DNA from: Rhodanobacter humi
GTDB taxonomy: Bacteria > Pseudomonadota > Gammaproteobacteria > Xanthomonadales > Rhodanobacteraceae
Assembly: GCF_041107455.1 (NCBI RefSeq)
Contig: NZ_JBGBPY010000001.1
Span: 806,001-870,000 of the forward strand
DNA: 64,000 bases
Direction: 5' to 3'
Shown: positions 8,330-13,165 of the stretch, one piece after another
Layout of the letters: each line of letters starts with the position of its first letter
Numbering within the stretch: the first letter of the stretch is position 1
The notes under the pieces: generated by a model
Database searches by the model: none
Seen by the model: the letters and a program-made list of their open reading frames with translations, nothing else
Told to the model about the DNA's origin: nothing
Translations under genes and position numbers: made by a program

Positions 8330-9493
<1,164 letters not shown>

Positions 9494-9524
9494 AGGCAAA
9501 CGCAAAAAGCGCGCTACCAAAACA

Positions 9525-9558
9525 AAGCGGGGAGAAGGCGTTGGCCTTCTCCCCGCTT
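9525..9558 (-). terminator. intrinsic terminator after rplT
   Basis: On the minus strand a perfect 15-bp stem (9544-9558 with 9525-9539), loop CAAC, is followed by GTTTTGG. It starts 31 bp after the rplT stop and ends the thrS-infC-rpmI-rplT transcription unit before pheS. Confidence 0.85.
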
Positions 9559-9588
9559 GATTCACATCATATCGTCAGTGAGCGACGA

Positions 9589-9948
9589 TCAAGCGGCCAG
9601 ACTGGCCTTCGCCTTTTCCGCGATGGCGCCAAACGCCTTGATGTCGTGCACGGCGATGTCCGCCAGCACCTTGCGGTCGACCGTGATGCCGGCCTTCGAC
9701 AGGCCGTTGATCAGGCGGCTGTAGGACAGGCCGAACTGACGGGCCGCGGCATTGATGCGCACGATCCACAGGGCGCGGAACTGGCGCTTCTTCTGCTTGC
9801 GGCCGATATAGGCGTACTGGCCAGCCTTGATGACGGCCTGGTTCGCTACGCGGAACACCTTGCGGCGGGCGTTGTAATAGCCCTTCGCGCGGCCGATGAT
9901 CTTCTTGTGACGACGACGGGCGGTAACGCCACGCTTTACACGAGCCAT
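9589..9948 (-). CDS. rplT: 50S ribosomal protein L20
   Basis: 119 residues, matching the family length, with the canonical N-terminus [17 protein letters not shown], the central [19 protein letters not shown], and the family C-terminal domain [18 protein letters not shown]. It is an early 23S rRNA-binding assembly protein. It lies 17 bp downstream of rpmI and ends just before a strong terminator. Confidence 0.98.
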
Positions 9949-11002: not shown

Positions 11003-12904
11003 TCAGCGCCGGGTTTCGGTCACCAGACGCTCGATGAAGTCGGCCAGCGGCATGCTGCCCAGATCCTCGCCCGAACGGGTACGCACGGAAACGGTCCCCG
11101 CTTCCTTCTCGCGGTCACCGACCACCAGAAGATAAGGGATTTTCTGCAACGTATGTTCACGGATTTTATAGCCGACCTTCTCGTTGCGCAAATCGGCCTC
11201 CACCCGGAAGCCTTTGCCGACAAGGGCTTGCGCCACCTCGCTGGCGTATCCGGCCTGGGCATCGGTAATGCTGAACACCACCGCCTGCACCGGCGCCAGC
11301 CAGGCCGGCAGCAGGCCGGCGTGGTGCTCGATCAGGATGCCGATGAAACGCTCCATCGAGCCCACGATGGCCCGATGCAGCATCACCGGATGCTGTTTCT
11401 GCGAGTTTTCGTCCACGTACTCGGCATCCAGGCGCTCGGGCATCATGAAATCCACCTGCATGGTGCCGACCTGCCAGGCGCGACCGATCGAGTCCTTGAG
11501 GTGATACTCGATCTTGGGCGCATAGAACGCGCCCTCGCCCGGCAATTCCTCCCATTCCACGTCAGCGGCACGCAAGGCACGACGCAGCATTTCCTCGGTG
11601 CGGTCCCAGAACTCGTCCGAACCGATGCGCTTGTCCGGCCGCAATGCGAGCTTGATCGCCAGATCGGTGAAACCGAAATCGGCGTAGACCTTCATCGCCT
11701 GCAGGTGGAATGCGGTGACCTCCGCCTCGACCTGGTCCGGCGTGCAGAAGATGTGGCCGTCGTCCTGGGTGAATGCGCGCACGCGCATGATGCCGTGCAG
11801 CGCGCCGGACGGCTCGTTGCGGTGGCAGCCGCCGAACTCGCCGTAGCGGATCGGCAGCTCGCGGTAGCTGTGCAGGCCGGTGTTGAACACCTGCACGTGG
11901 CCCGGGCAGTTCATCGGCTTCAGCGCGAAGGTGTGCTTCTCCGACTCGGTGAAGAACATGTTCTCCGCGTAGTTGTCCCAGTGGCCGGACTTCTTCCACA
12001 GCGACACGTCCAGCACCATCGGGCAGCGCACTTCCTGGTAGCCGCTGCGCTTGTACACGCCGCGCATGTACTGCTCCACCGCCTGCCAGATCGCCCAGCC
12101 GCGCGGGTGCCAGAACACCATGCCCGGGCTTTCCTCCTGCTGGTGGAACAGGTCCAGCGCCTTGCCGATCTTGCGATGGTCGCGCTTCTCGGCCTCTTCC
12201 AGCTGATGCAGCCAGGCCTTCAGATCCTTGTCGTTCAACCACGCCGTGCCGTAGATGCGGGTCAGCATCGCGTTGTTGCTGTCGCCGCGCCAATAGGCAC
12301 CGGCCACCTTCATCAGCTTGAACGCGCGCAGCTTGCCGGTGTTCGGCACATGCGGGCCACGGCACAGGTCGGTGAACTCGCCCTGCGTGTACAGCGACAG
12401 TTCCTCGTTGGCCGGGATGGATTCGATGATCTCGGCCTTGTAGCTCTCGCCGATGCCGCGGAAGAACGCCACCGCCTCGTCGCGCGACTTCACGCTGCGC
12501 GCGAGCGGCAACGCCTCCTTGACGATCTTCTCCATCTCCGCCTCGATCTTCGGCAGGTCCTCGGGCGTGAACGGGCGCTCGTAGGCGAAGTCGTAGTAGA
12601 AACCGTTGTCGATCACCGGGCCGATCGTGACCTGCGCGCCCGGATACAGCCGCTGCACCGCCTGCGCCAGCAAGTGCGCGGTGGAATGGCGCAGGATCTC
12701 CAGCGCCTCGGGGCTCTTCTCGGTGACGATCTCGAGGCGGGCGTCGTGTTCGATGGGGAAGCTGGCATCCACCAGCTTGCCGTCCACCTTGCCGGCGAGG
12801 GTGGCCTTGGCCAGGCCGGCGCCGATGGAGGCGGCCACGTCCTGCACGGACACCGGGTGGTCGAACGGGCGCTTGCTGCCGTCGGGTAGCGTGATCTCGA
12901 TCAT
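11003..12904 (-). CDS. thrS: threonyl-tRNA synthetase
   Basis: 633 residues. TGS domain at the N-terminus ([20 protein letters not shown]), editing domain with [20 protein letters not shown] (HxxxH zinc/editing motif), class II core with [31 protein letters not shown] and [18 protein letters not shown], and a C-terminal anticodon-binding domain (about 530-633). Two ATGs are close together, 12910 and 12904. AGGA lies 6 nt before 12904 but abuts 12910, so 12904 is preferred. It heads the thrS-infC-rpmI-rplT cluster and is preceded by a leader peptide and terminator. Confidence 0.97.
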
Positions 12905-12980: not shown

Positions 12981-13001
12981 TGTCCGCCCGGATGGCGGAC
13001 A
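12981..13001. other. second leader hairpin between attenuator and thrS
   Basis: TGTCCGCC (12981-12988) and GGCGGACA (12994-13001) form a perfect 8-bp stem just downstream (minus direction) of the T-run of the attenuator. It may stabilise termination or shape the thrS ribosome-binding region. Confidence 0.45.
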
Positions 13002-13025
13002 AAAACAAAGGCGCTTGAGCGCCTT
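12999..13025 (-). terminator. candidate transcription attenuator in the thrS leader
   Basis: On the minus strand AAGGCGC-TCAA-GCGCCTT is followed by TGTTTTTGT, a typical intrinsic terminator 95 nt before thrS. The left arm AAGGC can pair instead with GCCTT of the upstream CCGCCTTGT (13034-13042), which would free the terminator's right arm. That CCGCCTTGT can in turn pair with ACAAGGTGG further upstream (about 13108-13116), giving the 1:2, 2:3, 3:4 alternatives of classical attenuation around a leader peptide. Confidence 0.7.
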
Positions 13026-13050
13026 CGTGGAGCACAAGGCGGAAGAGCCG

Positions 13051-13077
13051 TCAGCGGTGATTACGGGTAGTTGCCAT
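13051..13077 (-). CDS. putative thrS leader peptide MATTRNHR
   Basis: An 8-codon frame on the minus strand, ATG GCA ACT ACC CGT AAT CAC CGC TGA, with two adjacent Thr codons at positions 3-4. It ends 26 nt before the attenuator stem. Stalling at the Thr codons when charged tRNA-Thr is short would favour the antiterminator. The Shine-Dalgarno is poor (GAGCG 4 nt before ATG). Function is inferred from position, Thr content and the alternative RNA pairings. Confidence 0.5.
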
Positions 13078-13135
13078 GTCGCACGCTCGGCCGGCGCGTT
13101 GGCGCGGGCCACCTTGTCTCTGGAATGACGGCGAA

Positions 13136-13165
13136 ACGCTAGTTTAGCCCATCGCGTGCTGTCAA
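13136..13165 (-). promoter_or_regulatory. candidate sigma-70 promoter for the thrS leader
   Basis: A consensus -35 TTGACA (minus strand, 13165-13160) is followed after 18 bp by TAGCGT (13141-13136), a weak -10; TAAACT overlaps it but at too short a spacing. The position is right for a leader transcript containing the peptide and attenuator, in the gap divergent from the epimerase gene. Confidence 0.45.

Follow-up and report, generated by a model that had tools for sequence, protein, structure and literature searches.

The thrS gene in the 64,000-nt stretch of DNA analyzed here (the window, part of a 4.15-Mb genome) is very probably controlled by a ribosome-mediated transcription attenuator that couples its expression to charged tRNA-Thr. 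Judged from the leaders compared, such a switch probably raises production of threonyl-tRNA synthetase (ThrRS) under threonine shortage, in the window and in most of the relatives sampled from the same order (Xanthomonadales). The arrangement of a Thr leader and a terminator before thrS was confirmed as real, conserved and beyond chance: the segment 13135-12981 folds 3.8 sd below its dinucleotide shuffles (z = -3.8), and the same layout recurs across the order as sampled. By comparing sequences we could show a conserved ORF with Thr codons, a terminator, an antiterminator that appears to have co-evolved with it, a spacer geometry that would fit the ribosome footprint, and a covarying hairpin. 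The layout of ribosome-mediated attenuation, proposed in a preliminary description of this DNA, is thus supported: Thr codons, terminator and antiterminator are conserved, and the spacer co-varies.

Organization of the thrS Upstream Region

All features described here lie on the minus strand and are given in window coordinates. The thrS gene occupies 11003..12904; its start ATG at 12904 was fixed by comparing relatives (ATGATCGAGATCAC). Upstream of it lies an 8-codon leader ORF (13051..13077; ATG GCA ACT ACC CGT AAT CAC CGC TGA) encoding MATTRNHR, in which the Thr control codons ACT ACC are codons 3 and 4 (13066..13071). An intrinsic terminator follows at 12999..13028, with a stem-loop at 13028-13005 and a T-rich tract down to 12999; the stem reads ACGAAGGCGC-TCAA-GCGCCTTTGT, and a consensus scan detected the same terminator. 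As is expected of an attenuator, the short ORF carries codons for the amino acid of the downstream gene, and an intrinsic terminator stands between the leader ORF and the structural gene. The 8-codon ORF with adjacent Thr codons and the terminator had been noted in the preliminary description, and both were read at those positions, in an arrangement that is conserved.

The sequence CCGCCTTGT is located directly 3' of the leader stop. On the other side of the leader, segment 1 (ACAAGGTGG, 13109..13117) resembles a Shine-Dalgarno (SD) sequence and is complementary to the sequence 3' of the leader stop, and the minimum-energy fold of 13135-12981 contains the ACAAGGTGG:CCGCCTTGT helix together with the terminator. 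Two more hairpins, GTCCGCC..GGGCGGAC and CCGGCCGTCCATGGCCGG, were noticed between the terminator and thrS (13000-12954); similar post-terminator hairpin stretches are present in L004, L006, L008, and L015, and absent from L003 and L005.

A -10-like TAAACT is found at 13141..13146, where relatives have TAGACT or TAGAAT. Of 127 loci, 56 have a match to G[GCT]TA[AG]N[ACT]T between 40 and 100 nt 5' of the leader ATG, where shuffles would give 3.2, and we infer a transcription start upstream of the leader. The TTGACA named earlier as the -35 element is present at 13160..13165, but it is doubtful in that role because it stands just 13 nt from the conserved TAAACT and is therefore not a well-spaced -35. 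A strict promoter scan found no site at the locus.

Conservation of the Leader and Terminator

The arrangement was followed through 136 thrS upstream regions of the order (30 + 26 + 80 from three samplings), which were picked among the matches listed and not at random; 76 belong to the family of the window, 40 to a second family, and 20 to other families. The comparison set comprised 68 thrS loci outside the order, one of which (L263) has 271 nt upstream only. A leader was defined as an ATG ORF of 5-14 codons upstream of thrS, with Thr counted among residues 2-7. At least one Thr was found in 131 of the 136 order loci vs. 20/68 outside, and at least two in 124/136 vs. 6/68. When a terminator was required in addition to two Thr, 119/136 order loci qualified vs. 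4/68 outside, including 16 of the 20 from the families beyond the two main ones. The residue ranking next after Thr under the same rule with terminator was Arg, at 14/136 order loci. A stem with a T-rich tract was found by rule in 128 of the 136 order loci and in 35/68 outside.

Eight residues is the predominant leader length (104 of the 127 loci with leader and terminator). Peptides in other families include MRTTTMAIH, MNVSFRTTT, MCQQATTTTTP, and MRYTRTTSDAPS. The Thr ORF is also kept in loci without a nearby tRNA. Counting against the model, five of the 136 order loci have no short Thr ORF (L018, L025, L026, L076, and L123), and in four others the leader is present and the terminator absent by rule (L023, L075, L090, and L120). 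Among the former, L076 retains a -10-like GGGCTAAACT and L123 a terminator-like hairpin, so both may be recent losses of the Thr leader. In another leader frame, an in-frame likeness to the ThrS N-terminus was seen by eye; it is seemingly not kept in relatives and was set aside.

Threonine Codons in the Leaders

A search pattern built on the 5' motif without any Thr codon gave at least 120 matches in GTDB species genomes. Among 120 of these loci, Thr occupies codon 3 without exception and codon 4 in 108; 117 of the 120 are followed by thrS, and the other three sequences end within 200 nt. Genera among the matches listed are Rhodanobacter, Dyella, Luteibacter, Luteimonas, Lysobacter, Xanthomonas, Stenotrophomonas, Pseudoxanthomonas, Thermomonas, and Dokdonella. 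The alignment of relatives suggested in the preliminary description as a check on the Thr codons and stems thus came out in favor of conservation, with codon 3 invariably Thr among these 120 and with terminator and antiterminator co-varying.

Codon choice was examined in 195 leaders, a set that holds some genomes twice and consists of 115 chosen for an ORF of at least one Thr with ACATG plus 80 pattern matches not chosen in this way. Codon 3 is ACT in 188, ACG in 6, and ACA in 1. Of the 195 leaders, 170 have Thr at codon 4, and codon 2 is represented by 17 different codons. Six genes of the window use ACT for 1 of their 87 Thr codons, and 56 thrS loci use it for about 50 of 1408 (a count to which one short locus contributes a little flanking sequence). 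ACT, seldom used for Thr in these genes, is strongly over-used at leader codon 3. The tRNA-Thr anticodons of the genome are GGT, CGT, and TGT among the 30 of 49 tRNA loci read. Reasons why control codons differ between leaders are discussed in one earlier study (PMC1183508), and that discussion bears on the near-fixed ACU of this leader.

Antiterminator Pairing and the Proposed Switch

The 5' strand of the antiterminator (segment 2) was placed at 13036..13049 by duplex prediction and a swap test; its 3' strand (13010..13025) consists of the terminator left arm, the loop, and the first right-arm bases. The switch tests used the 127 loci with leader and terminator, in which the distance from the leader stop to the terminator is 25 +/- 3.4 nt. 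In the swap test the post-stop stretch was paired with the left arm, loop, and 5 nt of the right arm of its own locus or of other loci. The own duplex averaged -16.4 vs. -14.2 kcal/mol for swapped ones and was better in 96/127 loci (Wilcoxon 5e-10, with the 5-nt right-arm extension chosen post hoc after viewing the alignment); with left arm and loop only, p was 0.0096. By family, p was 0.019 in the first, 4e-6 in the second, and 8e-4 in the others; these and all other p-values given here are optimistic, that is, too small, because the loci are related by descent. Control pairings were not significant (SD with arm, p 0.17; spacer with right arm, p 0.12). By the swap test and these controls, the antiterminator and the terminator are mutually exclusive.

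The pairing of CCGCCTTGT with the left arm of the terminator, as first suggested, therefore stands by the swap test; the antiterminator is longer than CCGCCTTGT, however, and extends its pairing to the loop and the first part of the right arm. The alternative pairing with ACAAGGTGG fared less well: own SD:spacer pairs were better than swapped ones over the 127 loci (Wilcoxon 6e-5), but the signal was not significant within families (0.076, 0.107, and 0.74). In L010, L014, and L031, segment 2 contains GCCTGAGCTTGTCGAAGG after the leader stop, which is similar to a common interspersed repeat, so the antiterminator strand of these loci may have come from a repeat.

A ribosome at the stop codon, modeled with an assumed footprint, would weaken the antiterminator pairing by 6.9 kcal/mol, compared with 4.0 kcal/mol for shuffled spacers, and the cost is larger than with shuffled spacers in 101/127 loci. 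At the window locus such a ribosome would weaken the duplex from -15.7 to -11.7 kcal/mol, and the antiterminator fold and the terminator hairpin have -16.3 and -15.3 kcal/mol, respectively. In these calculations the spacer geometry would fit ribosome-mediated attenuation, with a ribosome at the stop covering part of segment 2. A partition-function test of the stalled and stop states gave an average effect close to 1 kcal/mol over the 127 loci (Wilcoxon 1e-6 for the stalled state and 0.004 for stall minus stop) and was weak per locus, with 15 of the 127 below 95% of shuffles; at the window locus it runs contrary to the model (stall -5.6, stop -8.8 kcal/mol).

The proposed switch would work as follows. 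Transcription would begin upstream of the leader, and a ribosome would load via the SD that is set apart from the AUG by a hairpin. When Thr-tRNA is ample, the ribosome would reach the stop codon, which precedes the terminator by about 25 nt, and lie over the first part of segment 2; with segment 2 covered in this way the antiterminator would be blocked, and RNA polymerase would stop. When Thr-tRNA is scarce, the ribosome would stall at ACU ACC (codons 3-4), and the free segment 2 would pair with the terminator from its left arm through the loop to the first right-arm bases, so that thrS would be transcribed. Leader translation, stalling, and read-through are predicted steps of this scheme.

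The leader might instead act mainly on thrS translation, by coupling, re-initiation, or SD release, and not on termination. In L003 some 20 nt separate the T-tract from the start of thrS, so the terminator fold could mask the ribosome binding site (RBS) there too. In the window, on the other hand, about 100 nt and two hairpins separate the terminator from the thrS ATG, and the stem with T-rich tract that recurs in 128/136 order loci speaks for termination. We therefore consider a mainly translational role unlikely and prefer transcription attenuation.

A Covarying Hairpin Between the SD and the Leader ATG

The layout first described was incomplete: it included the SD-like segment and missed two elements between it and the leader ATG, a covarying hairpin (13110-13089; GGCC-C-GCG..CGC-C-GGCC) and a near-invariant GAGYGTGYGAC directly 5' of the ATG (13078..13088). 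Both were seen in an alignment of 88 sequences, drawn from the 114 non-redundant of the 195 leaders, and RNAalifold recovered the hairpin unaided. Its 7 pairs are formed in 96.2% of cells, and 6 of the 7 have changed on both sides. None of 500 shuffles reaches its covariation score, a comparison in which related sequences can exceed such shuffles, and slid versions of the hairpin score far lower. The loop is variable in sequence and length.

A covariance model was built from the same 88 sequences and searched with strict filters. In the genome of the window it gave one confident match (E 1.2e-16), before thrS, and three others with E >8. Matches were obtained in 194 of 298 genomes of the order, many of which had supplied model sequences: 93/100 in the family of the window, 101/103 in the second family, and 0/95 elsewhere in the order; two order genomes carry a second match. 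Among 95 loci of the two families, 91 were matched, once each, the misses being L076, L082, L097, and L123. In the class, 4 of 232 genomes were matched, namely the genome of the window, two of the second family, and one with a weak 25-bit match. Eleven loci, 9 from other families, have a different hairpin in this position; it has 4 pairs, 2 of them compensatory over 10 distinct rows, and its support is modest, as 45 of 500 shuffles reach the same number of pairs. In L021, L108, and L109 the SD directly precedes the leader ATG.

It is conceivable, though doubtful, that the hairpin and GAGYGTGYGAC form a sensor that responds to ThrRS, a ribosomal protein, or a small ligand and adjusts how often the leader is translated. 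If so, the locus would be a two-input switch with control of leader initiation on top of codon-sensing attenuation, and the hairpin would be the rebuilt heir of a lost ThrRS operator. The split RBS of an 8-codon leader also makes ribosome recruitment by very short leaders testable. We also compared the 5' motif with tRNA-Thr, using 30 of the 49 tRNA loci, and found no support for tRNA mimicry, since 159 of 200 shuffles were as tRNA-Thr-like.

Comparison With the E. coli-Type ThrRS Operator

The E. coli thrS gene is the classic case of translational autoregulation by a tRNA synthetase. Its operator hairpin is recognized by ThrRS and splits the thrS RBS, as described in PMC3858243 and PMC3936740; in K-12 we find GTGATC-TTTCGTGTG-GGTCAC before the start. 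A search for operator-like hairpins with the 9-nt loop NNNCGTNNN within the last 110 nt before thrS detected 25 of the 68 loci outside the order, where 0.4 were expected, and no enrichment within it (3/136 order loci vs. 1.8 expected from shuffles). No CGU-loop hairpin of this type was found just before thrS at the window locus. Inspected by eye, the 25 operator loci (between L264 and L329) have a loop containing CGT and stems that change in step.

These counts bear on a ThrRS autoregulation of the E. coli kind, in which the enzyme would bind a tRNA-Thr-like leader hairpin and block translation or promote termination. Such control is described for E. coli thrS in the same two papers, and the conserved hairpin splits the leader RBS much as the E. 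coli hairpin splits that of thrS. Against this, operator hairpins are at the chance level in the order, the loop of the leader hairpin varies, the 5' motif is no more tRNA-Thr-like than shuffles, and the Thr codons would be left without a role, which makes autoregulation of this kind very unlikely compared with attenuation.

The contrast with E. coli drawn in the preliminary description holds, given an operator in K-12 and in 25/68 loci outside and the chance level in the order, and control of thrS seems to have been switched. In these comparisons the attenuator seems to take the place of the E. coli-type translational operator in the order. The order, which includes Xanthomonas, Stenotrophomonas, Lysobacter, and Rhodanobacter, seems to rely on codon-sensing attenuation and not on protein-RNA feedback. 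This makes thrS a testable example of an essential gene at which one regulatory logic would have given way to another.

A tRNA-Val(GAC) gene lies upstream of thrS in 46 of the 68 outside loci (for example L274, L275, L285, L287, L299, and L303) vs. 26/136 order loci, one of the 26 on the opposite strand. Eight outside loci read by eye have a terminator-like hairpin after tRNA-Val, and the Thr leader of some order loci (L021, for instance) sits between the tRNA and the terminator. The tRNA occurs before thrS inside and outside the order, so the terminator may be ancestral, and the position of the leader in L021 suggests that the attenuator may have arisen from the terminator region of the tRNA. 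That the terminator is an ordinary one, for instance that of the upstream tRNA-Val so often found there, with a chance ORF before it and thrS expressed from another promoter, is very improbable, because the Thr ORF is kept where no tRNA is near, codon 3 is always Thr among the 120 pattern loci, spacer and terminator co-vary, and the Thr ORF rule gives 4/68 outside the order.

Comparison With Known Leaders and Databases

Ribosome-mediated attenuation is well established for amino-acid operon leaders of the trp, his, thrLABC, leu, and pheST type. The thrS leader shares with them a short ORF with control codons, an intrinsic terminator, and an antiterminator 5' strand that a ribosome at the stop codon would cover. 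It differs in being mostly 8 codons long with one to few Thr, usually at codons 3-4, in its nearly fixed rare ACU, in the covarying hairpin that splits SD from AUG (in two families), and in the gene that it would control, that for the Thr-tRNA synthetase. Segment 1 of the thrS leader, unlike that of the trp and his leaders, precedes the leader ORF, out of reach of the predicted stalled ribosome, which counts against the model. The E. coli thrS operator concerns the same gene, and its hairpin likewise splits a ribosome binding site; it has a CGU loop that resembles the anticodon of tRNA-Thr, and it lies at the thrS RBS, whereas the hairpin of the order has a variable loop and lies at the leader RBS.

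For the hisS family of bacilli, PMC2965389 describes switched sensing systems, with His leader peptides and T-boxes exchanged. It is a precedent for a synthetase gene gaining a cognate leader peptide by a switch of sensing system. The hisS case concerns another gene in another phylum, whereas the thrS leader stands where relatives have a protein-binding operator.

Rfam searched over the whole window at the curated threshold returned tRNA only; around the leader there were eight sub-threshold matches, none a leader or T-box, and eight related loci gave tRNAs only. Rfam families include the Thr operon leader and the T-box. The operator hairpin had no Rfam match in the E. coli stretch (L332) or in L299, both of which carry it. 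No Rfam family matched the split RBS of the 8-codon leader in the loci searched. Full-text searches gave no Thr leader at thrS in this order among the matches listed; there is older comparative work on proteobacterial attenuators, and an earlier mention in it is possible.

Elsewhere in the window, no Phe-rich leader ORF was seen by eye before pheS (9300-9620). The interval between rplT and pheS has inverted repeats (9330-9560), and a terminator-like hairpin follows rplT.
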